A DNA stretch of 64,000 bases from Saccharothrix longispora (GTDB lineage Bacteria; Actinomycetota; Actinomycetes; Mycobacteriales; Pseudonocardiaceae). Made by a program: the position numbers and the translations under genes. The notes beneath the pieces were generated by a model, which saw only the letters and a program-made list of their open reading frames with translations, did no database searches and was not told the DNA's origin. How positions within the stretch are numbered: position 1 is the first letter of the stretch; each line of letters starts with the position of its first letter. Location of the stretch: positions 806,001 to 870,000 of the forward strand of contig NZ_NSDM01000001.1 of NCBI RefSeq assembly GCF_030852425.1. Direction: 5' to 3'. Below, piece after piece: positions 14,109-27,244 of the stretch.

Positions 14109-14936
14109 ATGGGGGGTGTGCAGAGACCATCCCTTGTGGCATCCGACGTCGACGGCACCCTGCTCACCCCCCTCGGCGGGGTGAGCCCCCGCACCGCCGC
14201 CACGGTCGGTCGCGTGCTCGCGGAGGGCGTCCCGTTCGTCCTGTCCACCGGCCGCCCACCGCGCTGGGTGCCGGTCGTCGCCGACGCGGCCGGCCTGACC
14301 GGGTACGCCGTGTGCTCCAACGGGGCGGTGCTCTACGACATCGGCGCCGACCGCGTCGTCTCGGCCGAGCTGCTCACGCCCGTGCAGCTCACCGACCTCG
14401 CGGCGGTGCTCGACGAGGCGCTCCCCGGCTGCTCCATGGCCTCCGAGCGGCTCGGCGGGAGCGCCCGCGACCCGGGCAGGGCGGAGTTCATCGCCGACGA
14501 GCGCTACCTGCACCCGTGGGAGGAGGGCGCGCAGCCGCTGCCCGGCCACCAGCGCGCCCAGCTGCTCGGCAAGCCCGCGGTGAAACTGCTGGTCAGGCAT
14601 CCCGGGATGACGTCGGACGAGATGGCGCGCGCGGCCGGCCCGCTCGTCGGGGACTCGGTCGCGATGACCTGGTCGACCGACGAGGGCCTGCTGGAGTTCG
14701 CCGCGCCCGGCGTGACCAAGGCCACCGGGCTCGCCGCGGTCGCCGACCGCCTGGGCGTCGCCGCCGCCGACGTGCTCGCCTTCGGCGACATGCCCAACGA
14801 CGTGCCGATGCTCAGGTGGGCGGGCCACGGCGTCGCGATGGCCAACGGCCACGCCGACGCGCTCGCGGTGGCCGACGAGGTCACCGCGAGCAGTGCGGAG
14901 GACGGGGTGGCGCAGGTGCTGGAGCGCTGGTTCTGA
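14109..14936 (+). CDS. HAD-superfamily (Cof-type) sugar-phosphatase-like hydrolase
   Basis: 275 residues. HAD motif I is VASDVDGTLL (nucleophile and acid Asp), motif II VLSTGRPP, motif III a Lys in KPAVKLLV, and motif IV FGDMPNDVPML. The C2-cap arrangement and length match Cof/YbiV-like phosphatases acting on sugar phosphates or FMN-like substrates. Exact specificity is not readable. The ATG is poorly supported by a ribosome binding site; a GTG three codons later is possible. It ends 7 bp from the convergent LpxA-like gene. Confidence 0.85.
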   Translation: MGGVQRPSLVASDVDGTLLTPLGGVSPRTAATVGRVLAEGVPFVLSTGRPPRWVPVVADAAGLTGYAVCSNGAVLYDIGADRVVSAELLTPVQLTDLAAVLDEALPGCSMASERLGGSARDPGRAEFIADERYLHPWEEGAQPLPGHQRAQLLGKPAVKLLVRHPGMTSDEMARAAGPLVGDSVAMTWSTDEGLLEFAAPGVTKATGLAAVADRLGVAAADVLAFGDMPNDVPMLRWAGHGVAMANGHADALAVADEVTASSAEDGVAQVLERWF

Positions 14937-14943
14937 CGACCGC

Positions 14944-15660
14944 TCAGGCGTGGTGGGCCGCGGCGAGCGGCTTGGCCGGTTCCGCCTCGGCCCACCACGC
15001 GAACGCCTCCCGCAGCTCCTCGGGCAGGTCGGCGGGCACCTCGGACCGGGCGTAGGCGTCCGCCAGCGCGCGGATCGCCGCCTCGCCGAACCCCGCGCGG
15101 CTCATCCCGACCGCGTTGACGCCCCGCAGCCGCACCGGCCCGCCGAACGCCTTCGCGAACGGGGGCACGTCCCGCGACACGACCGCGCCCATGCCCACCA
15201 TCGAGAGCGGGCCCACGACGCGGCGCTGGTGCACGACCGCGTTCATGCCCAGGTTCACGCCGTCGCCCACCCGGACGTGCCCGCCGAGCGACACGCCCGC
15301 CGACAGCGTCACCCCGGCTCCCACCGCGCAGTCGTGCGCGACGTACGCGCGGTTCAGCAGCCACGTGCCCGCGCCGATCGAGGTGGGCCGGTGGCTGCCC
15401 TGGTGGACGGTGCTCAGCTCGCGCACCGTGACGCCCTCGCCGAGGTGCACGCCCGCGTGGGCGAGTTCACCGTCCCACGCCCGGTTGTGCGGTTCCGAGG
15501 TGATCTCGGGCGGCGTGCCGATCACGCAGTGGGGGCCGATCCAGCAGCCGTCCTCGACGACCGCGGGGCCGAGGACGACGGCCCCCGGGCCGATGGTGAT
15601 GCCGTCCCCGAGTTCCACACCTGCGCCTACTACCGCGGTGGGGTGAATGTGGTTGACCAC
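14944..15660 (-). CDS. LpxA-like left-handed beta-helix acyltransferase
   Basis: 238 residues. It starts with IHPTAVVGAGVELGDGI and continues through hexapeptide repeats, ending in a helical C-terminal domain, as in LpxA (UDP-GlcNAc O/N-acyltransferase). The catalytic-His region of the family is recognisable (VHQGSHRP), with NRAYVAHDCAVG and NLGMNAVVHQRR further on. Actinomycetes make no lipid A, so acylation of another nucleotide sugar is likely. The divergent neighbours are a DegT aminotransferase and a Gfo/Idh oxidoreductase, the GnnB/GnnA pair that makes UDP-2,3-diamino sugars for LpxA in some Gram-negative bacteria. 3-N-acylation of such a sugar is my favoured inference. Confidence 0.8.
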   Translation of the reverse strand: MVNHIHPTAVVGAGVELGDGITIGPGAVVLGPAVVEDGCWIGPHCVIGTPPEITSEPHNRAWDGELAHAGVHLGEGVTVRELSTVHQGSHRPTSIGAGTWLLNRAYVAHDCAVGAGVTLSAGVSLGGHVRVGDGVNLGMNAVVHQRRVVGPLSMVGMGAVVSRDVPPFAKAFGGPVRLRGVNAVGMSRAGFGEAAIRALADAYARSEVPADLPEELREAFAWWAEAEPAKPLAAAHHA

Positions 15661-15798
15661 AGACGTCCGTCCTGATCGGGATGTGGTCCGCGCCGGTGGC
15701 CGCGGGTCGGTACGGGGTACCGTGGCGGCGCAATGCGGGCCGCGCAGCACTCTACCGGGGTCCGCGGGTGTGGCTTCGTGAAGGCGAGAGAGCGCTGC

Positions 15799-16896
15799 AT
15801 GATCCCGATTACTGTCGTTGACGTAGCTGCCGCCGAGCAGTTGGTCCTCCAAGTGCTGCGGTCGGGAGCGATCGCGCAGGGACCGATGGTCAAGCGGTTC
15901 GAGGACGCGTTCACCGGGGTCGCGGGCGTGCCGCACGCGGTCGCCGTGAACAACGGGACGACCGCCCTGGTGGCCAGCCTCCAGGTGCTCGACCTCCAGC
16001 CGGGTGACGAGGTGGTCACCTCGCCGTTCACCTTCGTCGCCACGCTCAACGCGATCCTGGAGGCGGGTGCGACCGCGCGCTTCGCGGACATCCGCGACGA
16101 CGACTTCTGCCTCGACCCGGCGGCGGTCGCCGCGGCCGTGACCCCGCGCACCAAGGTCCTGATGCCCGTGCACCTCTACGGGCAGATGGCCGACATGGGC
16201 GCGCTGGTCCCGCTGGCGGAGCAGCACGGGCTCGCCATCGTCGAGGACGCCGCGCAGGCCGTCGGGGCCACCTACGAGGGCCGCGCGGCGGGGAGCTACG
16301 GGCTCGGCTGCTTCTCGCTCTACGCGACCAAGAACATCACCACCGCCGAGGGCGGCGTCATCACCACCGGTGACGACGTGCTCGCCGACCGGCTGCGGGT
16401 GCTGCGCAACCAGGGGATGCGGCAGCGCTACCAGTACGAGGTCGCCGGCCACAACTACCGGATGACCGACGTGCACGCGGCCATCGGCATCCCCCAGCTC
16501 GAACAGCTGGAGACCATCACCGACGCCCGCCGGCGCAACGCCGAGGCGCTGTCGAAGGGCCTGGCCGACATCACCGGCCTGCGCGTGCCCCCGGTCCTGC
16601 CCGGTCGCACCCACGTGTGGCACCAGTACACCGTGCTCGTCACGGACGACGCCGCGGTCGGCCGCGACGAGTTCGCGGCGAAGCTCACCGAGAAGGGCAT
16701 CGGCAACGGGATCTACTACCCGAAGGCGGTGTTCGACTACGACTGCTACCGGGACAACCCGAACGTCATCGCCTCGGACGTGCCGGTCGCCGAGCGGGTC
16801 GCCCGCCAGGCGCTGTCGCTGCCCGTGCACCCCAAGCTCACCGAGGCCGACCTCGACACGATCGTCACCACCGTCCGGGAGGTGCTGGGAGCATGA
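15799..16896 (+). CDS. DegT/DnrJ/EryC1/StrS aminotransferase (GnnB/WbpE-like)
   Basis: 365 residues, PLP-dependent sugar aminotransferase. NNGTTALVASL, the SPFTFVAT strand, the Asp in VEDAAQAVGA, and Lys178 in CFSLYATKNITTAEGG (Schiff-base lysine) mark the family. It would transaminate a 3- or 4-keto nucleotide sugar. With the GnnA/WbpB-like oxidoreductase that overlaps its stop by 4 bp (ATGA), the natural reading is conversion of UDP-GlcNAc to a 3-amino sugar. I chose the ATG before IPITVVDV; an upstream GTG-type extension is not coding-like. The 138-bp gap to the divergent acyltransferase should hold both promoters. Confidence 0.9.
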   Translation: MIPITVVDVAAAEQLVLQVLRSGAIAQGPMVKRFEDAFTGVAGVPHAVAVNNGTTALVASLQVLDLQPGDEVVTSPFTFVATLNAILEAGATARFADIRDDDFCLDPAAVAAAVTPRTKVLMPVHLYGQMADMGALVPLAEQHGLAIVEDAAQAVGATYEGRAAGSYGLGCFSLYATKNITTAEGGVITTGDDVLADRLRVLRNQGMRQRYQYEVAGHNYRMTDVHAAIGIPQLEQLETITDARRRNAEALSKGLADITGLRVPPVLPGRTHVWHQYTVLVTDDAAVGRDEFAAKLTEKGIGNGIYYPKAVFDYDCYRDNPNVIASDVPVAERVARQALSLPVHPKLTEADLDTIVTTVREVLGA

Positions 16897-17870
16897 GCGC
16901 GCTGCCGCGGATCGCCGTCGTCGGCGTCGGCTCGATGGGATCGCTGCACGCCCGGGTCATCGCCCAGAGCGAGCGCTGCGAACTCGCGCTGATCGTCGAC
17001 CCGCGCGAGGAGATCGGCCGGACCGTCGCCGGCAAGTACGACACGACGTGGTCGCCGGAGATGGGCGACCTCGACGGGATCGACGCGGTGGTCCTCGCGT
17101 CGAGCACCGAGAGCCACCACGGCCTCGCCCTGGAGGTGCTGGAGAAGGGCAAGCCGCTGCTGGTGGAGAAGCCGGTGTGCGCGAGCCTCCCGCAGACCGA
17201 GGAGGTCCTGGCACTCGCCGAGTCGAAGGGCCTGCCGGTCGTGTGCGGCCTGCTGGAGCGCTACAACCCGGCCGTCATGACCGCCCTCGGCATGCTGGAG
17301 GAGCCGGTCTACGTCTCCGCCGCGCGGCACTCGCCCTACGCGCCGCGCATCCGCACCGGGGTCGCGTGGGACCTGCTGGTGCACGACGTCGACCTGGCGG
17401 TCCAGTGCTTCGGCGGCGCCGAGCCCGAGCGGGTCGCCGCCGGCATCGCCCAGTTCCACCCCCAGTCCGTCCCGGGCGCCGAGGACGTGGTGGACGCGCT
17501 GCTCACCTTCCCCGCCGGCGGGATCGCCACGATCTCGGCCAGCAGGCTCGGGCAGCGCAAGGTGCGGTCCCTGACGATCCAGGAGCTCGAGCGCACCATC
17601 GAGGTCGACCTGCTGCGCCGCGACGTGACCATCTACCGGCACATCTCGCACGACTCGGACCCCGAGGGCCGCGGCTACCGCCAGCAGACGGTGATCGAGA
17701 TCCCGGAGCTGGTCACCGCCCGCGAGCCGCTGGCGACCCAGTTGGACCGCTTCCTGGACCTGGTCGCGGGCAAGGGCGACGCGGACGACGAGCGCCGCCG
17801 CATCCTCCCGTCGCACCGGGCCGTCGCGGCCGTGCACGCCGACCGCCTGGTCGACGCCCGGCGGGGCTGA
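16893..17870 (+). CDS. Gfo/Idh/MocA oxidoreductase (GnnA/WbpB-like)
   Basis: 325 residues. An NAD(P)-binding Rossmann motif (IAVVGVGSMGSLHARVI) precedes the catalytic EKPV motif (LLVEKPVCAS) and a C-terminal alpha/beta domain with HDVDLAVQCFGG. GnnA and WbpB oxidise the 3-OH of UDP-GlcNAc or its uronic acid for the paired aminotransferase; neighbourhood and family fit that role here. The start overlaps the aminotransferase stop. A strong terminator follows. No UDP-GlcNAc 6-dehydrogenase (WbpA) is seen in the window, which favours a GnnA-type over a WbpB-type pathway. Confidence 0.88.
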   Translation: MSALPRIAVVGVGSMGSLHARVIAQSERCELALIVDPREEIGRTVAGKYDTTWSPEMGDLDGIDAVVLASSTESHHGLALEVLEKGKPLLVEKPVCASLPQTEEVLALAESKGLPVVCGLLERYNPAVMTALGMLEEPVYVSAARHSPYAPRIRTGVAWDLLVHDVDLAVQCFGGAEPERVAAGIAQFHPQSVPGAEDVVDALLTFPAGGIATISASRLGQRKVRSLTIQELERTIEVDLLRRDVTIYRHISHDSDPEGRGYRQQTVIEIPELVTAREPLATQLDRFLDLVAGKGDADDERRRILPSHRAVAAVHADRLVDARRG

Positions 17871-17886
17871 TCCGACACCCGACGAC

Positions 17887-17917
17887 GGAGGGGGCGTCCC
17901 GCCCGGGACGCCCCTCC
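17887..17917. terminator. Hairpin terminator
   Basis: A 14-bp GC stem (GGAGGGG(G)CGTCCCG pairing with CGGGACGCCCCTCC, one bulged G) lies between the oxidoreductase and the convergent 2-epimerase gene and can serve both. Confidence 0.75.
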
Positions 17918-17936
17918 TGTCCGCGGTGCGGCGGGG

Positions 17937-19034
17937 TCACACGTAGCCGAGCCGGTCCAGGGTGTCCGCGATGACCTCGCTCGGGTGGTACTGGTCCATC
18001 ATGGACGGACGTCGCAGCGTCTCGTGCTCGGCGAGGAACTCCTCCAGCTTGTCCGCGCGCATCCCGGTCAGCACGATGTTCTGCCCGAGTCCCTGGTGCC
18101 GCTCGGTCCGCTCGCGGTGGATGGCGCACGGCATGCCGAGGTAGGCGCCCTCCTCCTGGAGCCCGCCGGAGTCGGTGACGACGAACTCCGCCCGCGTCAG
18201 CAGCGGCAGGAACTCCAGGTAGCGCAGCTTCGGCCGCAGCACGAAGCGCTCGTCGTCGAACAGCCCGTTCAGGCCGAGGGCATCGAGGCGCTCGCGCTCG
18301 TGGGCGCCGACCAGGTACAGCAGCGGGGTCTTCTCGCTCGCCCCCTTCAGGACCTGGAGCACCTCCCGGAACTTCTCCGGTCGCTGGAGGAGCTCGAACC
18401 GGTGCAGCGTCACCAGGCCGAACTCGGCGGGCAGGTCGTACGGCGCCCGGCCGCCCTCCTTGGCGAGCCTGAGCGCGTCGATGACCGTGTTGGCGCCGGT
18501 GTCGACCACCACGCCGCGCGCGCGGCGCAGGTTGCGCACCTCGCGGGGCGTCGGGGCGAAGTGGATGTCGACCAGGCGGGCGGCGAGGCGCCGGTTGGCC
18601 TCCTCGGGCAGCGGGCTGAGCAGGCTGCCGCTGCGCGTGCCGGCCTCGACGTGCGCGACGCGGGCGCCCAGGATGCGGCCGATCAGCGAGCCGTAGGGCG
18701 TGGTGAACGTGTCGCCGTGAACGACGACCACACCCGGCTTGCCGTCCGACTCCAGCGCGGCCCGGAGCTCCTTGCGCCGCCCGGCCACGGACCTGGCCAC
18801 GGAGGCCGCCCAGCGGGGCACCTGCGCGGGCCGCTCCAGGTTGCGCGCGCTCCGCTCCGGCACGAGCCAGACGTCGGGCTTGGACAGCCCGAGGTCCTTC
18901 AGGGTGTCCGCGACCTCGTCCACGTGCTGCGCGGTGAACCACAACTGCGGCGTGGCGCCACGGGCGACGAGCGCGTGGTGCACCGGAGCGATCTTGATCA
19001 GCTCCGCGGTGGTGCCCACGATGAAAGAAATCAC
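17937..19034 (-). CDS. UDP-GlcNAc 2-epimerase-like protein (copy 1)
   Basis: 365 residues of the WecB/NeuC/WbpI epimerase fold. Conserved parts are VGTTAELIKIAPVHHAL, VVVHGDTFTT (the usual QGDTxT is HGDTFT here), HVEAGTRSG, and TDSGGLQEEGAYLGMPC (UDP-binding region). It converts UDP-GlcNAc, or a 3-amino derivative, to the manno isomer. The GTG start follows AGAGGGAAG by 9 nt and gives exactly the length of copy 2 (21424-22521), which is clearly paralogous over its full length. The adjacent GnnA/GnnB-like genes suggest a WbpI-like role, but simple ManNAc synthesis is possible. Confidence 0.87.
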   Translation of the reverse strand: MISFIVGTTAELIKIAPVHHALVARGATPQLWFTAQHVDEVADTLKDLGLSKPDVWLVPERSARNLERPAQVPRWAASVARSVAGRRKELRAALESDGKPGVVVVHGDTFTTPYGSLIGRILGARVAHVEAGTRSGSLLSPLPEEANRRLAARLVDIHFAPTPREVRNLRRARGVVVDTGANTVIDALRLAKEGGRAPYDLPAEFGLVTLHRFELLQRPEKFREVLQVLKGASEKTPLLYLVGAHERERLDALGLNGLFDDERFVLRPKLRYLEFLPLLTRAEFVVTDSGGLQEEGAYLGMPCAIHRERTERHQGLGQNIVLTGMRADKLEEFLAEHETLRRPSMMDQYHPSEVIADTLDRLGYV

Positions 19035-19364
19035 CGGAAGTCGCTTCCCTCTAGGCTGGAACCAGCTCAGCCGCGCGCGGCTGCGAACCCGACCGAGTGT
19101 AATCTCCACCATCGTGAGCCAGTCCGCCGTCACCCGGGCACCGATGCCCGGTGCCGCCCTCCCCCGGGTACGACGGGGAAGAGCGGATCGGCGGCTCACC
19201 GGCTTCCACCGCGGCGGAAGCGTGCCGGGGCCGGCGTCCGCGCCCGCCCCCACCGGGTCCTTCCGCGACACCGCGCCGTCCCGGTCCCTTCACGTGACAC
19301 CGGTGCCGGCACCGCGAGCCGAGCCGCCTCCCGCCATTCCACCGACTGGGGATCGAACGCTCTC
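19035..19364. other. Gene-free divergent intergenic region
   Basis: 330 bp between the 2-epimerase and the DUF6541-like membrane protein, which are transcribed away from each other. No credible reading frame was seen. It should contain both promoters; a GTGTAATCT segment near 19097-19105 is the only AT-rich patch, and no clear -35/-10 pair could be fixed. Confidence 0.5.
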
Positions 19365-21344
19365 ATGGGTGCACTGGTAGTACTCGCTTTCTGGCTGCCG
19401 GGGCTCGCCCTGGGCCTGACCCTGCGGCTGAGAGGGTGGACCCTCGCCGCCGCCGCGCCGGTGCTGACGTTCGGCGGCATCTCGATCGGCACGGTCGTGC
19501 TGGGCCGGCTCGGCATCCCCTGGGACCTGCTGAACGTCGTCCTGTGGTTCGCGGTCCTGGCGCTCGTGGTGGGCGTCCCGACCTGGCTGGTCGCCCGCCG
19601 GAAGGCGGGCTCCGCCGCCGCTCCCGCCACGGGTGACGACGCCGCCGGGCACGGCTCGGCCGCGTCGGACGGCACGTCCGCCGGGACCGACGCCGCCCCG
19701 CGTCCGCTGCGCGACAACCTGCTCGTCCTGGCGGGCGTCGTGGCGGGCATGGCGGTCGGGGTGGTGACCTTCATGCGCGGCCTCGGCTGGAGCCTCGCCA
19801 CCATCAACCAGGACTGGGACGCCCCGTACCACGGCAACGCGATCCGCTGGATCTCGGAGCACGAGGACTCGTTGCCCGCCTCGCTGGCGCCCACCGCGAA
19901 CCTGCCGGGCAAGGTCGACTACTTCTACCCCAACACGTACCACGCGCTGCTCGCGCCGATGCTGGACGGCGTCGCGGCGATGCCGCAGCTGCTGAACCTC
20001 GCGGTGCTGTCCGTCGTCATCGCGTGGCCCCTCGGCATCGCGGCCCTCGCGCTCGCCTGGCGGATGCCGCCGCTGACCGCCGCCGTCGCCGCCGCGGTCT
20101 CCACCTGGTTCACCGCGTTCCCGTACGACTCCCTGTGGCGCGGTCCGCTGTGGCCGTTCGTCGCCGGTGTCGCCCTGGTGCCCGCCACCCTCGCGCTGGC
20201 CCGCAGGATCTTCACCGACCGCGGCCTCACCGGACCGCTCGCCGTCGCCCTCGCCCTCGCGGGTCTCGTCGGCCTGCACACCAGCCTGGCCTTCGTCGTC
20301 GCCGTCTACGCGGTGATCCTGCTCGTGTTCCTGGCCGTCCGGCTGGAGCCGGTGGACTGGAGGCGGAGCGCGCTGCCCCTCGCCGTCACGGCGGTGCTGG
20401 CGGTGCTGGCGGTGGTCCCCATCGTGCTGCCCGCGTTCGGCCCGTCGGCCGGCGTGACCGCGGCGCAGTGGGCCGAGTTCGCCACCCCCGTCGAAGGTTT
20501 CGGCCAGGTGGCGCTGTTCTCCCCGGTCACCGGGTTCCCCCAGTGGTTCCTCGGCGCCGCCGCGTGCGCCGGCGTGGTGCTGATGGTGCTGCACCGCCGG
20601 ATGCCGTGGGTGGTCGCGACCTACGTCGTCTTCGGCGCCGTCTACGCCGCCTGCGCCTCGCTGGACAACGACTTCGTCGACCTCGTCACCGGCCCCTTCT
20701 ACAACGACGCGTGGCGGTTCGCGGCCCTCCTGCCGCTGGCCGGCGCGCTCGGCGTGGGCGAACTCGTGTGGACGCTCGCCCGGTCCGCCTCGGAACGCGC
20801 CTCGTCGCGGGTCGGCGCCGCCCGGGCGGCGTTCGCGGTGCCCGTGGCCGTCGCCCTGGTGGCGGTCGCCGTGCTGGGCGTGCTCGGCAAGGGCGCGTAC
20901 ATCGGCCGCAACTCCGAGCGCCTCGCGCAGTCCAACAAGAGCGGGCCGACGGTCCTGCCGGGGGAGCGCGACGCCTACCGGTGGCTCGCGGAGCACTCCG
21001 AGGGCAAGCCCGTGATGAACGACCGGCTCGACGGCTCGGTGTGGATGTACGCCCTCGCGGGGGTCAAGCCCGTCGAGTGGACCTTCTACGGCGCCACCGA
21101 GGAGAGCGACGCCGGCCGGCTCACGTGGCACCTCCAGGAGATCGACACCGACCCGTCGGTGCGCGAGGCGATCCGCGAGCTGGGCGTGAAGTACTTCCTG
21201 GTCGGGCGCGGCCTGGTGCGCGCCGAGATGAAGCCGGCGCCGGGCCTGGAGGACATCGAGGACATGCCGCAGATGCGGAAGGTCTACTCGAACCCGGACG
21301 CGGCGGTCTACGAACTGGTGGACGACGCCCTCGCGGACTCCTGA
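19365..21344 (+). CDS. Large polytopic membrane protein, DUF6541-like
   Basis: 659 residues with about 13-14 membrane helices followed by an outside C-terminal domain (about 520-659). An acidic/aromatic loop after the fourth helix (INQDWDAPYHGNAIRW, then PNTYHALLAP) resembles the Asp-containing first loop of GT-C glycosyltransferases, and the tail (MNDRLDGSVWMYALAG) resembles those enzymes' periplasmic domain. I associate this architecture with DUF6541. A lipid-linked-sugar glycosyltransferase role is plausible but unproven. It is flanked on both sides by paralogous 2-epimerase genes on the opposite strand, which suggests its donor contains a ManNAc-type sugar. Confidence 0.72.
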   Translation: MGALVVLAFWLPGLALGLTLRLRGWTLAAAAPVLTFGGISIGTVVLGRLGIPWDLLNVVLWFAVLALVVGVPTWLVARRKAGSAAAPATGDDAAGHGSAASDGTSAGTDAAPRPLRDNLLVLAGVVAGMAVGVVTFMRGLGWSLATINQDWDAPYHGNAIRWISEHEDSLPASLAPTANLPGKVDYFYPNTYHALLAPMLDGVAAMPQLLNLAVLSVVIAWPLGIAALALAWRMPPLTAAVAAAVSTWFTAFPYDSLWRGPLWPFVAGVALVPATLALARRIFTDRGLTGPLAVALALAGLVGLHTSLAFVVAVYAVILLVFLAVRLEPVDWRRSALPLAVTAVLAVLAVVPIVLPAFGPSAGVTAAQWAEFATPVEGFGQVALFSPVTGFPQWFLGAAACAGVVLMVLHRRMPWVVATYVVFGAVYAACASLDNDFVDLVTGPFYNDAWRFAALLPLAGALGVGELVWTLARSASERASSRVGAARAAFAVPVAVALVAVAVLGVLGKGAYIGRNSERLAQSNKSGPTVLPGERDAYRWLAEHSEGKPVMNDRLDGSVWMYALAGVKPVEWTFYGATEESDAGRLTWHLQEIDTDPSVREAIRELGVKYFLVGRGLVRAEMKPAPGLEDIEDMPQMRKVYSNPDAAVYELVDDALADS

Positions 21345-21423: not shown

Positions 21424-22521
21424 TCAGACGTAACCGAGCTGCGCCAGCGTGTCGACGATGACCTGGCTCGGGTGGTACTTCTCCATCACGGACGGGCGAC
21501 GCAGCGTCTCGTGCTCGTCGAGGAACTTCGCCAGCTTGTCCGACCGCATCCCGGTCAGCACGATGTTCTCGCCCAAGCCCTGCTTGGTCTCGGTGCGCTC
21601 GCGGTGGATCGCGCACGGCATGCCCAGGTACGCGCACTCCTGCTGGAGGCCGCCGGAGTCGGTGACCACGAACTTCGCGCGCGCCAGGATCGGCAGGAAC
21701 TCCAGGTAGCGGCGCTTGGGGCGCATGATGAACCGCTCGCCGTCGAACAGGTCGGCCCAGCCGTGCCGCTCGATGCGCTCGCGCTCCGGCGCGCCCGCCA
21801 AGTACAGCATCGGCGTCCGCTCCGAGGCCTTGCGCAGCAGCTCCAAGGCCTCGCGGAACTTGTCCGCGCGCTGCACCAGCTCGAACCGGTGCAGGGTGGC
21901 GAGGCCGAACTCCGGAGGCAGGTCGTCCTCGGTGGTCGAGTCGATCGCCAGGCGCATCGCGTCGATCACCGTGTTCGCACCGGTGTCCACGACCACGCCG
22001 CGCGCGCGGCGCAGGTTGTGGACCTCGTTGTCGCTCGGCGCGAAGTGGATGTCGGTCAGCTTCGACGCGATCCGCCGGTTCAGCTCCTCGGGCAGCGGGC
22101 TGAGCAGGCTGCCGCTGCGCATGCCTGCCTCGACGTGGGCCACGCGGGCACCCAGGAGGCGGCGCGCGACGAACGAGCCGTACGGGGTGGTGAAGGTGTC
22201 GCCGTGCACGACCACCAGGCCCGGCCTGCCGTCGGACGCCAGTGCCGCGCGCATCTGCTTGCGCTGGTTCAGCGCGGTCCGGGCCACGGACAGCGCCCAG
22301 CCGGGGACGTGCGACGGCGTCTCCAGGTTCCGAGCGCGGTTGCGCGGCACCAACCACAGGTCGGGCTCGGGCAGCCGCAGGTCCTCCAGGGTGTCGGCGA
22401 CCTCGTCGACGTGCTGCGCGGTGAACCACAGCAGTGGTTTCGTGCCCCGGGCGACCAAGGCGTGGTAGACGGGCGCCACCTTGATGAGTTCAGCGGTGGT
22501 GCCTGCGATGAAGGCGATCAC
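21424..22521 (-). CDS. UDP-GlcNAc 2-epimerase-like protein (copy 2)
   Basis: 365 residues, the same length and clearly paralogous to the copy at 17937-19034. Shared blocks include FTAQHVDEVADTL, VVHGDTFTTPYGS, NLRRARGVVVDTGANTVID, TDSGGLQ and ENIVLTGMR-type endings. Differences cluster in the middle, including the segment between the two domains (DSTTEDDLPPEFG against RAPYDLPAEFG). The GTG start matches copy 1. It is divergent from a GT2 gene, 52 bp apart. Either it is a redundant duplicate or the two act on different UDP-sugars. Confidence 0.87.
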   Translation of the reverse strand: MIAFIAGTTAELIKVAPVYHALVARGTKPLLWFTAQHVDEVADTLEDLRLPEPDLWLVPRNRARNLETPSHVPGWALSVARTALNQRKQMRAALASDGRPGLVVVHGDTFTTPYGSFVARRLLGARVAHVEAGMRSGSLLSPLPEELNRRIASKLTDIHFAPSDNEVHNLRRARGVVVDTGANTVIDAMRLAIDSTTEDDLPPEFGLATLHRFELVQRADKFREALELLRKASERTPMLYLAGAPERERIERHGWADLFDGERFIMRPKRRYLEFLPILARAKFVVTDSGGLQQECAYLGMPCAIHRERTETKQGLGENIVLTGMRSDKLAKFLDEHETLRRPSVMEKYHPSQVIVDTLAQLGYV

Positions 22522-22566: not shown

Positions 22567-22573
22567 GTCAGCT

Positions 22574-23605
22574 GTGACGAGCCGGAGCAAATCCCTCGAC
22601 AGCGGTCCCGGCCTCAGCGTTGTGATGCCGGTCTTCAACGAGCAGGACTGGATCGAGAAATCGATCGAGGCGTTGCGGATCGCGCTGGACAAGGCAGCCT
22701 GGCCCGCTGAGATCCTCGTCGTCGACGACGGCAGCACGGACGAGACGCCGCAGCGCCTGGCGCGCACCGGGGTCACCGTCCTGACCCAGCCCAACCGCGG
22801 TCGCTTCGCGGCCCGGCAGGCGGGCATCGAGGCAGCGCGCGGCGAGCGCGTCCTCCTGCTCGACAGCCGGGTGCTGATCGACCCGGAGGCGCTCGTGCAC
22901 CTCAAGCAGCAGCTGCGCGAGCACCCGGAGCGCGTGGTCTGGAACGGGCACGTGAACGTCCAGTCGGCGGGCAACCCCTACGGCGGCTTCTGGGCCGGCC
23001 TCGTGGCCGTCGCCTGGCGCCGTTACCTCGCCGACCCCCGCCCGGTGTCGTTCGGCGCGGAGGAGTTCGACCTCTTCCCCAAGGGCACGGGTTTCTTCTG
23101 CGCTCCGCGCGCCATGCTCGTCGAGGCCGCCTCGTCGTTCTCGTCGCTGTTCGAGGACGTGCGGCTGGCGAGCGACGACACGCGGATGCTCCGGTGGGTC
23201 GCCGAGCGCGAGCGCATCCACCTGAGCCCCGACTTCTCCGCGACCTACCACAGCCGCGACTCGCTGAAGAAGTTCGTCCGGCACGCCTACTTCCGCGGCA
23301 CCACCTTCGTGGACGGCTACCTGGACTCGCCCGGTCCGGCGCGCACCGCGGCGTTCGTGGCCGGCGGCGTCGGCCTGGCCGGCCTGGTCGTCCTGGTGAA
23401 GCGGCCCAAGACCGCGCTCGCCCTCCTGGCCGCCGGGTCGGCCGCGGCGGGCGCGGTGTCCCGCAAGTCCGGCGCGACCGCCTCGCAGGCCGGGGCGGTC
23501 GCCCGGCTCATGCCGCTCTTCGCCGCCTGCTTCGGCTCCGGTGTCCTCCGCGGTCTGGTCCTGACCGCCCGCAAGGCACTGGCCACGAGGGGGCAGGGCA
23601 GGTGA
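22574..23605 (+). CDS. GT2-family glycosyltransferase with C-terminal membrane segment
   Basis: 343 residues. The GT-A fold starts LSVVMPVFNEQDWIEKSI, with ILVVDDGSTDETP for nucleotide binding; LLDSRVLIDP takes the usual DxD place (DSR rather than DAD). The acceptor-side region has DDTRMLRWV, and the C-terminal part (about 255-320) has two hydrophobic segments that could anchor it to the membrane. It is the first gene of an apparent operon of GT2, flippase-like, GT2 and DUF2304 genes. The GTG of the next gene overlaps its stop. Sugar and acceptor are unknown. Confidence 0.83.
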   Translation: MTSRSKSLDSGPGLSVVMPVFNEQDWIEKSIEALRIALDKAAWPAEILVVDDGSTDETPQRLARTGVTVLTQPNRGRFAARQAGIEAARGERVLLLDSRVLIDPEALVHLKQQLREHPERVVWNGHVNVQSAGNPYGGFWAGLVAVAWRRYLADPRPVSFGAEEFDLFPKGTGFFCAPRAMLVEAASSFSSLFEDVRLASDDTRMLRWVAERERIHLSPDFSATYHSRDSLKKFVRHAYFRGTTFVDGYLDSPGPARTAAFVAGGVGLAGLVVLVKRPKTALALLAAGSAAAGAVSRKSGATASQAGAVARLMPLFAACFGSGVLRGLVLTARKALATRGQGR

Positions 23606-24858
23606 GCGAGCGGCCCGCGGGCCGCTCGCTCGGCGTCGTCGGGATCGCCGTCCTCATCGCCGCGGGGCTCGGCTACCCGATCCTCATCATCGCCGGCCGG
23701 GTCCTGAGCCCTGCGGACTCCGCCGTCTTCCTGACCTTCTGGGGACTCGTCTTCGGCGTGGGCAGCACCCTGTCCCCCGTCGAGCAGGAGGTCTCCCGGC
23801 TGGCGGCCGTCGCCCACGTGGCCGGCGGGCGCGCCGGTGCGGCGGCCGGCCGCACGGTCGTCGTCGCGGCCGCGGCCGTGGGGGTCTTCGGCCTGTGCAC
23901 GCTGCTCCCGCCGGTCAGCGGCCGGCTGTTCGGCGAGCACGCCGGGCTCGCCGTCGTCTCGCTGGTCGGCAGCCTCGGGTTCGCGCTGCTGTTCGGCACG
24001 CGGGGCCTGCTCGTCGGCAGCCACCGGCACAAGCCGTACGGGGCGCTGGTCGTCGCCGAGGCGCTGATCCGGCTGGTGCTGTTCGGCGGCGCGGCGCTGC
24101 TCGGGATGAACGGCCTCGTGCCGCTCGCGGTCGCCGTGGCGGCGGGGTCGTTCGCGTTCCTGCCCTTCGGCCGCCTCTCGTCGTCCTTGTACGACCGCGG
24201 TCACGGCGCGGAGCCGTGGGGCCGCGTGGCCCGGCGCATCCTCGTGCTGATGCTCGGCGCCGCGCTGACCGCGAGCGTGCTCACCGGCTACCCGGCGATC
24301 GTGAAGCTGTTCGCCGCGCCGGGGGACGCGGAGGTGCTCGGCGGCCTGTTCTTCGCGCTCACCGTCGCCCGGCTGCCCCTGCTGCTGCTGTCCCCCGTCC
24401 AGGCGATGGCGGTGCCCACCGTCGTGCGGCTGTCCCGGGACGAGGCCGGCCGGCGGAGGTTGCGCGGCCTGCTGGTCAAGGGCTCGGCCGGCGCGTTCGC
24501 CGTCGCCCTGGCCGGCGCCGGGGTCGGCTGGCTGCTCGGCCCGTGGGCGGTGCGGCTGCTGTTCGGCTCGCAGTACGTGGTCGCCGGGTGGGCCGTCGCG
24601 GGCCTCGTGTGGTCGTCCGTGCTGGTCGGCGCCGTCATGCTGCTGGCCGGTGTGCTCGTCGCCCGCACCCGCGGCGACCTGGTGCTCGTGCTGTGGGCGG
24701 TGGTCGCCGGGCTGAGCGTCGTCGTCCTGCTCGCCTGGCCCGGGGGCATCGTCGCCCGCGCCGTGGCGGGCCTCGTCATCGCGCCCACCGTGGGCGCGGC
24801 GCTGGCCACCCTCTTCGTACTGCGACCTGGGACCAGGCCGGTTACGGTGACTCGTTAG
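23602..24858 (+). CDS. Polysaccharide flippase-like membrane protein
   Basis: 418 residues with about 12 membrane helices and a low content of charged residues, the layout of Wzx/MATE-like MOP-superfamily exporters. The first helices hold GVVGIAVLIAAGLGYPI and LTFWGLVFGVG, with an acidic EQE between helices 2 and 3. It overlaps the upstream glycosyltransferase by 4 bp, so it probably flips a lipid-linked product of this operon. It lacks a diagnostic motif, so the flippase call rests on topology and context. Confidence 0.7.
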   Translation: MSERPAGRSLGVVGIAVLIAAGLGYPILIIAGRVLSPADSAVFLTFWGLVFGVGSTLSPVEQEVSRLAAVAHVAGGRAGAAAGRTVVVAAAAVGVFGLCTLLPPVSGRLFGEHAGLAVVSLVGSLGFALLFGTRGLLVGSHRHKPYGALVVAEALIRLVLFGGAALLGMNGLVPLAVAVAAGSFAFLPFGRLSSSLYDRGHGAEPWGRVARRILVLMLGAALTASVLTGYPAIVKLFAAPGDAEVLGGLFFALTVARLPLLLLSPVQAMAVPTVVRLSRDEAGRRRLRGLLVKGSAGAFAVALAGAGVGWLLGPWAVRLLFGSQYVVAGWAVAGLVWSSVLVGAVMLLAGVLVARTRGDLVLVLWAVVAGLSVVVLLAWPGGIVARAVAGLVIAPTVGAALATLFVLRPGTRPVTVTR

Positions 24859-24867
24859 GCTCTGCCC

Positions 24868-25608
24868 GTGTCTTACTGGGCCGACTTGCGCCGGGTGCTG
24901 ATCGTGTTGCCCGCCCTCAACGAAGAGCACAACATCGAGAAGGTCGTGGCCGAGGTGAAGGCCGCCCTGCCCGACGTCGGTGTGCTGGTGGTGGACGACG
25001 GTTCCACGGACGCCACCTCTCCGCGCGCCCGCGAGAGCGGCGCCGCCGTCGCCCGGCTCGCGGTGAACCTCGGCGTGGGCGGCGCGATGCGCACCGGGTT
25101 CCGGTACGCGGTGCGCCACGGGTACGACGTCGTCGTGCAGGTCGACGCCGACGGGCAGCACAACCCGGCCGAGGTGCCCGAGCTGCTCCGCGCGCTCGAC
25201 CACGCCGACCTGGTCATCGGGGCGCGCTTCGCCGGCAAGGGCGAGTACCGGGCGCGCGGCCCCCGCCGGTGGGCCATGAAGGTCTTCTCCGTGGTCCTGT
25301 CGATGCTGGCCAAGACCAAGCTCACCGACGTGACGTCGGGTTTCAAGGCGGCGGGACCGCGTGCCGTCCGGCTGTTCGCACACCACTACCCGGCCGAGTA
25401 CCTGGGTGACACGCTGGAGTCGCTCGTCATGGCGGTCCGGGCCGACCTGACGGTCCGCCAGGTGCCCGTCGCCATGCGGGTCCGCGCCGGCGGCACCCCG
25501 AGCACCTCGCCGGTGAAGTCCGCCGTCTACCTGTTGCGCGCGTCCTTGGCGCTCCTGCTCGCCCTGATGCGGCGGAGGCCCAAGCAGAACGCCGCCGAAT
25601 CCGTCTAG
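24868..25608 (+). CDS. GT2 dolichyl/polyprenyl-phosphate sugar synthase-like enzyme
   Basis: 246 residues. LIVLPALNEEHNIEKVV, LVVDDGSTDAT and VQVDADGQHNP (DxD metal site) are those of DPM1/GtrB-type enzymes, which load a sugar onto polyprenyl phosphate. A later RGPRRWAMKVFS helix is amphipathic. It has no GtrB-like pair of C-terminal membrane helices; only the last 30 residues are hydrophobic. Such enzymes supply donors to GT-C proteins such as the DUF6541-like gene upstream (inference). The DUF2304 gene follows after 10 bp. Confidence 0.85.
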   Translation: MSYWADLRRVLIVLPALNEEHNIEKVVAEVKAALPDVGVLVVDDGSTDATSPRARESGAAVARLAVNLGVGGAMRTGFRYAVRHGYDVVVQVDADGQHNPAEVPELLRALDHADLVIGARFAGKGEYRARGPRRWAMKVFSVVLSMLAKTKLTDVTSGFKAAGPRAVRLFAHHYPAEYLGDTLESLVMAVRADLTVRQVPVAMRVRAGGTPSTSPVKSAVYLLRASLALLLALMRRRPKQNAAESV

Positions 25609-25618
25609 GAGGTCCGCC

Positions 25619-26017
25619 GTGCCCGAGTGGCGGTTGTTGAGCTTGTTGGCCGCGGTGAGCGTGCTCGTCGTGGTGGTCGAGATGATGCGGCGGCGCAAGC
25701 TCCGGGAGAAGTACGCCGGGATGTGGCTCCTGGTCGCCCTCGGCGTCGTCGTCTTCGCCGGCGTCCCCGGCTTGCCCACCTTCCTCGCGGATCTCACCGG
25801 CATCCAGCTGGCGGCCAACCTCCTGTTCGCCGTCGCGGCGTTCGTCCTGCTGTTCGTCGTCCTCCAGCTGAGCAGCGAAGTGGGTCACCTGGAGGAGGAA
25901 GTACGCACCACGGTGGAGGAGATCGCGCTCCTGCGCTGCGAGCTGGAGCAGGTCCGCGGCGAACTCGACAGACGTCTCTCGGCAGCCGAGGACCGGCTCG
26001 TCGACGTCAAGCCCTGA
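25619..26017 (+). CDS. DUF2304 membrane protein
   Basis: 132 residues with three predicted helices (about 5-22, 33-52, 62-85) and a C-terminal coiled coil (EEEVRTTVEEIALLRCELEQ). The central REKYAGMWLLVALGV is the DUF2304 signature. DUF2304 genes typically sit beside GT2 polyprenyl-phosphate sugar synthases, as here, and may help the enzyme's membrane placement. The GTG is preceded by GGAGG. It ends the operon. Confidence 0.8.
   Translation: MPEWRLLSLLAAVSVLVVVVEMMRRRKLREKYAGMWLLVALGVVVFAGVPGLPTFLADLTGIQLAANLLFAVAAFVLLFVVLQLSSEVGHLEEEVRTTVEEIALLRCELEQVRGELDRRLSAAEDRLVDVKP

Positions 26018-27244
<1,227 letters not shown>

Follow-up and report, generated by a model that had tools for sequence, protein, structure and literature searches.

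We analysed a window of 64,000 nucleotides from Saccharothrix longispora (the whole stretch of DNA examined; contig NZ_NSDM01000001.1, positions 806,001 to 870,000), which carries genes for an LpxA-like acyltransferase, a DegT aminotransferase, and a Gfo/Idh oxidoreductase. These three genes, called the trio below, probably make a 3-N-acylated 2,3-diamino nucleotide sugar for a surface glycan, similar to the GlcN3N (2,3-diamino-2,3-dideoxyglucose) branch of lipid A synthesis. The LpxA-like gene (14944..15660, minus strand, GTG start) encodes a 238-residue protein of the left-handed beta-helix N-acyltransferase type (Hexapep, 81 bits; Acetyltransf_11, 40 bits). An intergenic region of 138 bp (15661..15798), with presumed promoters, separates it from the divergent DegT/DnrJ/EryC1/StrS aminotransferase gene (15799..16896, plus strand; PF01041, 400 bits), a proposed 3-aminotransferase. 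The stop codon of DegT overlaps the start codon of the Gfo/Idh/MocA oxidoreductase gene in an ATGA (16893..17870, plus strand; PF01408, 71 bits), and the latter is a proposed UDP-N-acetylglucosamine (UDP-GlcNAc) 3-dehydrogenase. An initial annotation of this DNA had described the same divergent and overlapping arrangement, which is confirmed by gene calls, Pfam matches, and the ATGA. All three frames are intact, and the proteins are 86% (DegT), 85% (Gfo), and 73% (LpxA-like) identical to those of Lentzea californiensis (L056). The ratio of nonsynonymous to synonymous substitution rates (dN/dS, Nei-Gojobori method, NG86) is 0.19-0.33 for the trio genes between these two bacteria; the values from two more distant pairs per gene (0.24-1.1) are near saturation and were left unused.

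In the proposed pathway, Gfo would oxidize UDP-GlcNAc at C3 with NAD+, and DegT would aminate the 3-keto group in a pyridoxal phosphate-dependent reaction to give UDP-GlcNAc3N. The LpxA-like enzyme would then transfer an acyl group onto the 3-amine, giving UDP-GlcNAc3NAcyl. A PpgS-like family 2 glycosyltransferase (GT2) and its DUF2304 partner may load the sugar onto polyprenyl phosphate, a membrane protein may flip the polyprenyl-linked sugar, and either a DUF6541 protein or another GT2 may join it to the galactan-type glycan of the cell surface whose genes lie nearby. We infer each reaction and the acyl donor, as well as every export step, the export route being read from gene order.

The trio is a unit, and its members co-occur beyond chance. 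Among 150 genomes of the same family, the LpxA-like protein (E<=1e-25) is found in 47 and Gfo (profile search, E<=1e-70) in 40. The LpxA-like gene is present in 39 of the 40 Gfo-positive genomes, compared with 8 of the 110 Gfo-negative ones (Fisher p = 7e-27), and at the genus level in 17 of the 18 Gfo-positive genera (46 genera, p = 1e-8). The single genome with Gfo only (G028) is 86% complete, and its Gfo is located at a contig end. A scan with one genome per species confirmed 179 places with related loci, and the counts given here cover the 80 best of them. The LpxA-like gene was recovered at 66 of these 80 loci by our own gene caller and at all 80 by tblastn extraction; the caller skipped proteins shorter than 80 residues, and the counts of neighbouring genes over the 80 loci are lower bounds. 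Divergent LpxA-like and DegT genes with a gap below 600 bp are seen at 29 loci, and a further 17 contain a close DegT within 10 kb of the LpxA-like gene. DegT and Gfo abut in all 42 close pairs. At 12 loci, mostly from Leucobacter, a more distant Gfo is located 0-6 bp directly upstream of the LpxA-like gene. Neither a close DegT nor a directly upstream Gfo is seen at 22 loci; 4 of them hold a distant Gfo within 10 kb. When 12 of the 22 were followed by whole-genome search, Gfo was found elsewhere in all 12 genomes (E<=1e-89). The other 6 are Leucobacter loci, and at one of these (L075), gene calls place a Gfo just ahead of the LpxA-like gene. Across the phylum, at least 4 of 396 genomes, including the window genome, matched the LpxA profile at E<=1e-60, a lower bound because only 7 candidates were scored per genome. 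A search of the open literature, which covers few subscription papers, found no description of the trio in actinobacteria.

The matches of Gfo support the proposed pathway. GnnA and GnnB act on UDP-GlcNAc, according to the available part of PMC8036547. The top NCBIfam model of the window Gfo is NF040723, UDP-GlcNAc 3-dehydrogenase (128 bits), and the runner-up, inositol dehydrogenase, scores 37 bits lower (91.5 bits). The top PDB chain is 7bvj, both by phmmer (87.7 bits, next 48.6) and by profile search (120.7 bits, next 104.0). The search labels this entry "Oxidoreductase, NAD-binding", and we take it to be GnnA of Acidithiobacillus ferrooxidans; a literature search for the code 7bvj returned no paper carrying it. 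Residues E92-K93-P94, D160, and H164 are invariant in 36 sequences, down to 25% identity. The window protein has the Gfo/Idh fold, the EKP and Asp/His motifs, and the partner aminotransferase that characterize a GnnA-type enzyme, and its AlphaFold2 model is confident, with a predicted local distance difference test score (pLDDT) of 93.2.

The LpxA-like protein has close scores to 8e62 and to true LpxA. By phmmer, its best PDB chain is 8e62 (118.7 bits), followed by the best true LpxA (99.9 bits) and 3mqg (36.6 bits); the corresponding profile scores are 173.2, 173.9, and 53.4 bits. We assume that 8e62 is the N-acetyltransferase of GlcNAc3NAcA synthesis in Psychrobacter cryohalolentis and that 3mqg is a WbpD-type enzyme. 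Among 45 LpxA-like proteins, the equivalents of the catalytic His125 and of His160 and Gln161 of E. coli LpxA are kept in all 45, and that of His144 in 43. The window protein and its relatives share Tyr at position 122 with 8e62, and most other LpxA-like proteins have His there. Met occupies position 173, which is Gly and the hydrocarbon ruler in LpxA, in 44 of the 45; a short acyl group is therefore predicted, most likely acetyl or a chain of up to about C10. The 8e62 protein likewise has Met at 173, and it shares a PPE motif with the window protein; unlike the latter, it is placed outside the 45 actinobacterial proteins in a 50-sequence tree, and outside four LpxA proteins as well. The support of this node is 0.315, so the tree is silent on whether 8e62 or LpxA is nearer. 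The AlphaFold2 model of the window protein (pLDDT 92.5) shows regularly repeating short strands followed by C-terminal helices.

The likeness of the set to GnnA/GnnB with LpxA, drawn in the initial annotation, is supported. Neither Pfam scan nor tblastn detected a C6 dehydrogenase in the 64-kb window. The GnnA/GnnB and LpxA systems of Acidithiobacillus ferrooxidans and others, which make GlcN3N lipid A, similarly combine a Gfo, a DegT, and an LpxA-fold acyltransferase in a locus that lacks a C6 dehydrogenase. They differ in that the window genome has no LpxC or LpxB match at E<=0.001, so that lipid A is not produced via the known route, as had been expected of an actinomycete. They also differ in that the window acyltransferase lacks the LpxA residues Asp74, Lys76, and Glu200, is likely to use a shorter acyl group, and lies in a wall-glycan setting.

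Several observations weigh against the proposed pathway. The LpxA-like protein falls below the LpxA cut-offs (NF003657, 163.9 against 226 bits; TIGR01852, 152.7 against 231 bits). Lys76 and Glu200 of the LpxA sugar site are kept in none of the 45 LpxA-like proteins and Asp74 in one, and the window protein has Asn, Ala, Tyr, and Val at Asp74, Lys76, His122, and Glu200, which we take to be the sugar and nucleotide residues of LpxA. The Gfo score of 128 bits is below the 450-bit cut-off of NF040723, an archaeal model, and the identities given above for 7bvj and 8e62 are presumptive. Eight of the 47 genomes with an LpxA-like protein are without a trio-type Gfo. Three of these (G003, G049, and G081) share a genus, and a 20-kb region of G081 (L047) has another DegT (48% identity) and another Gfo (29%); the other five have distant LpxA-like proteins with 38-41% identity. 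The top plasmid match of DegT, from Streptomyces (48%), abuts a Gfo, and no acyltransferase is annotated in that 13-kb stretch. DUF6541 has no match in the Corynebacterium glutamicum control, which by Pfam separates it from the known Rv3779-type transferase. On average, the C-terminus of the LpxA-like proteins is acidic, both at loci that have the acyl cassette described below and at those that lack it, and thus gives no sign of an acyl carrier protein (ACP)-binding patch. DegT matches two 4-amino-sugar enzymes best, PseC among the NCBIfam models (283 bits, cut-off 423.5) and perosamine synthase in the PDB profile search (293.9 bits); 2oga, presumably the 3-amino enzyme DesV, scores 270.7 bits, and WbpE ranks lower (184 bits). 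Because cut-offs or residues failed, we make no assignment to GnnA, LpxA, WbpI, WecB, or PpgS, and DegT is not assigned to GnnB.

The DegT scores speak against a 3-keto role and raise the alternative of a 4-keto substrate for DegT and of a 4-amino sugar as the acceptor of the LpxA-like enzyme. Amycolatopsis-type loci, which have a second DegT (DegT2) together with a short-chain dehydrogenase/reductase (SDR), would also fit this alternative. Against it, the scan of window genes near the trio showed no SDR dehydratase, and Gfo abuts DegT in all 42 close pairs. In a tree that took in no GnnB or WbpE sequences, the window DegT is grouped with Gfo-partnered DegT proteins, apart from 3bn1 and the SDR-partnered DegT2 (support 0.86). 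The initial annotation had named sorting of the aminotransferase with 4-keto enzymes as an outcome that would speak against it; the model scores go partly in that direction and the tree goes the other way, and we regard a 4-keto substrate as very unlikely. A further alternative, which we consider unlikely, is a uronic pathway, in which the trio would make UDP-GlcNAc3NAcA like WbpB/E/D, starting from UDP-GlcNAcA provided by a UDP-GlcNAc 6-dehydrogenase whose gene lies elsewhere. Four plasmid relatives of DegT were opened, three haloarchaeal and one from Streptomyces. In all three haloarchaeal regions, a beta-helix-type acyltransferase, DegT, Gfo, and a nucleotide-sugar dehydrogenase are encoded in a row, with wecB next in one of the three, and the abutting DegT and Gfo homologues are 46-48% and 34-37% identical to those of the window. 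The available part of PMC10622841 describes these genes (acyltransferase, DegT, Gfo, dehydrogenase, and wecB) as those of the WbpA/B/E/D/I pathway. This setting of the homologues also counts in favour of a 3-keto role of DegT and Gfo in the main proposal. In the window genome (8.28 Mb, 54 contigs), four genes pass the UDPG_MGDP_dh_N cut-off, and the closest of them is on the same contig, about 76 kb away from the trio. In addition, 8e62, the PDB chain that the LpxA-like protein matches best by phmmer, presumably comes from a GlcNAc3NAcA pathway. Against this, the 64-kb window itself is without a 6-dehydrogenase, the haloarchaeal dehydrogenase has tblastn matches at only 6 of the 80 loci, and 3mqg scores far lower than 8e62. 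The WbpB/E/D(I)-type and haloarchaeal clusters carry a nucleotide-sugar dehydrogenase and a 190-residue acyltransferase, whereas the window has an LpxA-type enzyme and no such dehydrogenase. Finally, Gfo and DegT might act together with the neighbouring HAD phosphatase in an Ntd- or kanosamine-type route to a secondary metabolite, making a 3-amino sugar on another carrier. A Cof-type HAD phosphatase gene (14112-14936, Pfam) does adjoin the trio. We rejected it as an Ntd-type partner because the HAD gene accompanies an LLM gene, often at a distance from the trio, and with galactan genes on the right flank we regard this alternative as highly improbable. We note that a DegT-Gfo pair near a phosphopantetheine-binding protein is encoded on a plasmid of Streptomyces sp. 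NBC_00724 (L139, 4475-8120), where the annotation of the 13-kb stretch lists no LpxA-like gene.

For the acyl donor of the proposed pathway, other genera offer additional information. In many of them, genes for an ACP, a FabG-like SDR, an AMP ligase, LuxE, and LuxC share the locus with the LpxA-like gene, often directly downstream. This cassette beside LpxA-like loci is a new observation here. LuxE or LuxC is present at 32 or more of the 80 loci, an AMP ligase with both at no fewer than 29, an SDR in addition at 27 or more, and a called ACP in addition at 20 or more. LuxE (E<=1e-40) is found in 24 of the 150 same-family genomes, of which 23 bear the trio; 16 trio-bearing genomes are without LuxE at this threshold, including the window genome, where LuxE has no match. 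At three Lentzea loci where the LpxA-like gene is of the window type (L061-L063), just LuxE and/or LuxC is present, at the edge of the locus, and at five others (L056-L059 and L070), the DNA examined contains the trio and no cassette. The five genes are known from flagellin glycosylation islands of Aeromonas and Enterobacteriaceae, according to the available portions of PMC7874193 and PMC4875605. The cassette and LuxE counts and the flagellin islands favour acyl-ACP as the donor of the LpxA-like enzyme and a (3-hydroxy)acyl chain as the group transferred, with a housekeeping ACP replacing the dedicated cassette in the window genome, an alternative that we entertain only tentatively. It is opposed by the lack of a LuxE match in the window genome and by the Met at the ruler position. 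The mean net charge of the C-terminus is -2.8 at 31 cassette loci and -2.9 at 44 others (the remaining 5 of the 80 were dropped, as the motif was not found), and a different enzyme encoded there could be the one that the cassette supplies. With the cassette present in many genera, absent at the window, and the charges alike, acyl-ACP appears to be a live option for the family, and acetyl-CoA or another short acyl-CoA seems likelier for the window protein. A broader and rather speculative idea is an actinobacterial acyl-sugar branch, in which the trio, often fed by the cassette, would add an amide-linked (3-hydroxy)acyl group to a 2,3-diamino sugar of the wall galactan, and the cassette-less lineage of the window would use acetyl-CoA or housekeeping acyl-ACP.

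A WecB-like gene, Epi2a (17937..19034, minus strand; PF02350, 171 bits), is next to Gfo. The initial annotation had a 2-epimerase gene following Gfo and had counted it in the pathway; it is indeed next on the DNA, but on the opposite strand and convergent with Gfo, and its membership is not borne out. According to the part of PMC10622841 available, UDP-GlcNAc3NAcA epimerases are told from UDP-GlcNAc enzymes by Ala18, Tyr96, and Trp307 (T. thermophilus numbering). Epi2a has Ile, His, and Arg at these positions, whereas a Haloferax wecB from the full cluster (L138) has Ala, Tyr, and Trp, showing that the residue test works. The other catalytic-site residues described in that part of the source look kept in Epi2a by eye. 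Epi2a scores 164 bits against a WecB cut-off of 210 (NCBIfam), and Thr replaces the uracil-binding Arg12 both in Epi2a and in a second WecB-like paralogue, Epi2b (21424..22521, minus strand; Pfam and NCBIfam scans, residue alignment). At four Lentzea loci (L056, L058, L059, and L070), the DUF6541 gene is directly beside Gfo, with one WecB-like gene further out, so that Epi2a has no counterpart there. We reject a WbpI-like role on the diagnostic residues and the Lentzea synteny, and Epi2a is probably outside the trio pathway, which does not seem to need it. Epi2b recurs at six or more of the 80 loci and may be part of the wider cluster. In the window, Epi2a and Epi2b bracket the DUF6541 gene, and five aligned actinobacterial WecB-like members have GTTAELIK where haloarchaeal WecB has the uracil-binding Arg.

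The genes further to the right fit a surface glycan, in agreement with the wall or exported-glycan setting proposed initially. A DUF6541 protein, a candidate membrane transferase (19350..21344, plus strand, start uncertain; PF20176, 389 bits), is encoded by a gene that recurs in related loci. It is followed, beyond Epi2b, by a GT2 gene (22571..23605, plus strand, start uncertain; PF00535, 76 bits) and a gene for a hydrophobic protein (23602..24858, plus strand), labelled by eye as a candidate flippase and having no Pfam or NCBIfam match. The PpgS-like GT2 gene (polyprenyl-phospho-GalNAc synthase type; 24868..25608, plus strand; NF058614, 95 bits against a cut-off of 370) and the gene for a small DUF2304 protein (25619..26017, plus strand; PF10066, 79.5 bits) adjoin the first galactan gene, which encodes the UDP-galactopyranose mutase Glf (26036..27244, plus strand; TIGR00031, 354 bits, above cut-off). 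Two GlfT2-domain proteins, GlfT1 (503 bits, above cut-off), and an apparent ABC exporter pair, identified by eye, are encoded beyond Glf. According to the accessible part of PMC9671496, PpgS acts with Rv3632 in Mycobacterium to load polyprenyl phosphate with GalNAc, with which arabinogalactan is to be decorated, and a related set exists in Corynebacterium. The window is similar in having a PpgS-like GT2 beside DUF2304 with galactan genes adjoining, and DUF2304 is present in the C. glutamicum control. It differs from the PpgS-Rv3632-Rv3779 system, which decorates arabinogalactan with galactosamine, in its low PpgS score, in DUF6541, whose role as the Rv3779 transferase is not supported by the control, and in the donor sugar, which would be a different one. 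At a Leucobacter locus (L074), the PpgS-like, DUF2304, DUF6541, Gfo, and LpxA-like genes form one co-directional run ahead of two ABC-type genes.

3-N-acylated diamino sugars are known from lipid A and O-antigens. If the proposed pathway is correct, such sugars would also be wall-glycan components in Pseudonocardiaceae, Micromonosporaceae, Leucobacter, and Cellulomonas, and several unannotated genes beside galactan synthesis would gain proposed roles.

In Pseudonocardiaceae, the stretch from serS to glf (window 9571-34025) appears to be a hot spot where glycan genes vary. The window seryl-tRNA synthetase is 89% identical to the Saccharothrix algeriensis enzyme and 76-83% identical to those called at Lentzea and Streptoalloteichus loci, which suggests that the window belongs to this family. 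The conserved flanks (serS, L2HGDH-like, LLM, HAD, and Glf) enclose differing gene sets, even inside the genus of the window: one member (G110) has another LpxA type together with LuxE, and the five further members searched have no LpxA-like match. At 44 or more of the 80 loci, including L065, a protein with the LPG_synthase_TM domain (PF03706), a possible flippase, is encoded near the trio; the scanned window genes showed no such protein. Many loci, among them L109, L110, L122, L132, and others of the Amycolatopsis type, have a further amino-sugar set next to the trio, consisting of DegT2, an SDR epimerase/dehydratase, a GT4 glycosyltransferase, and a hexapeptide transferase.

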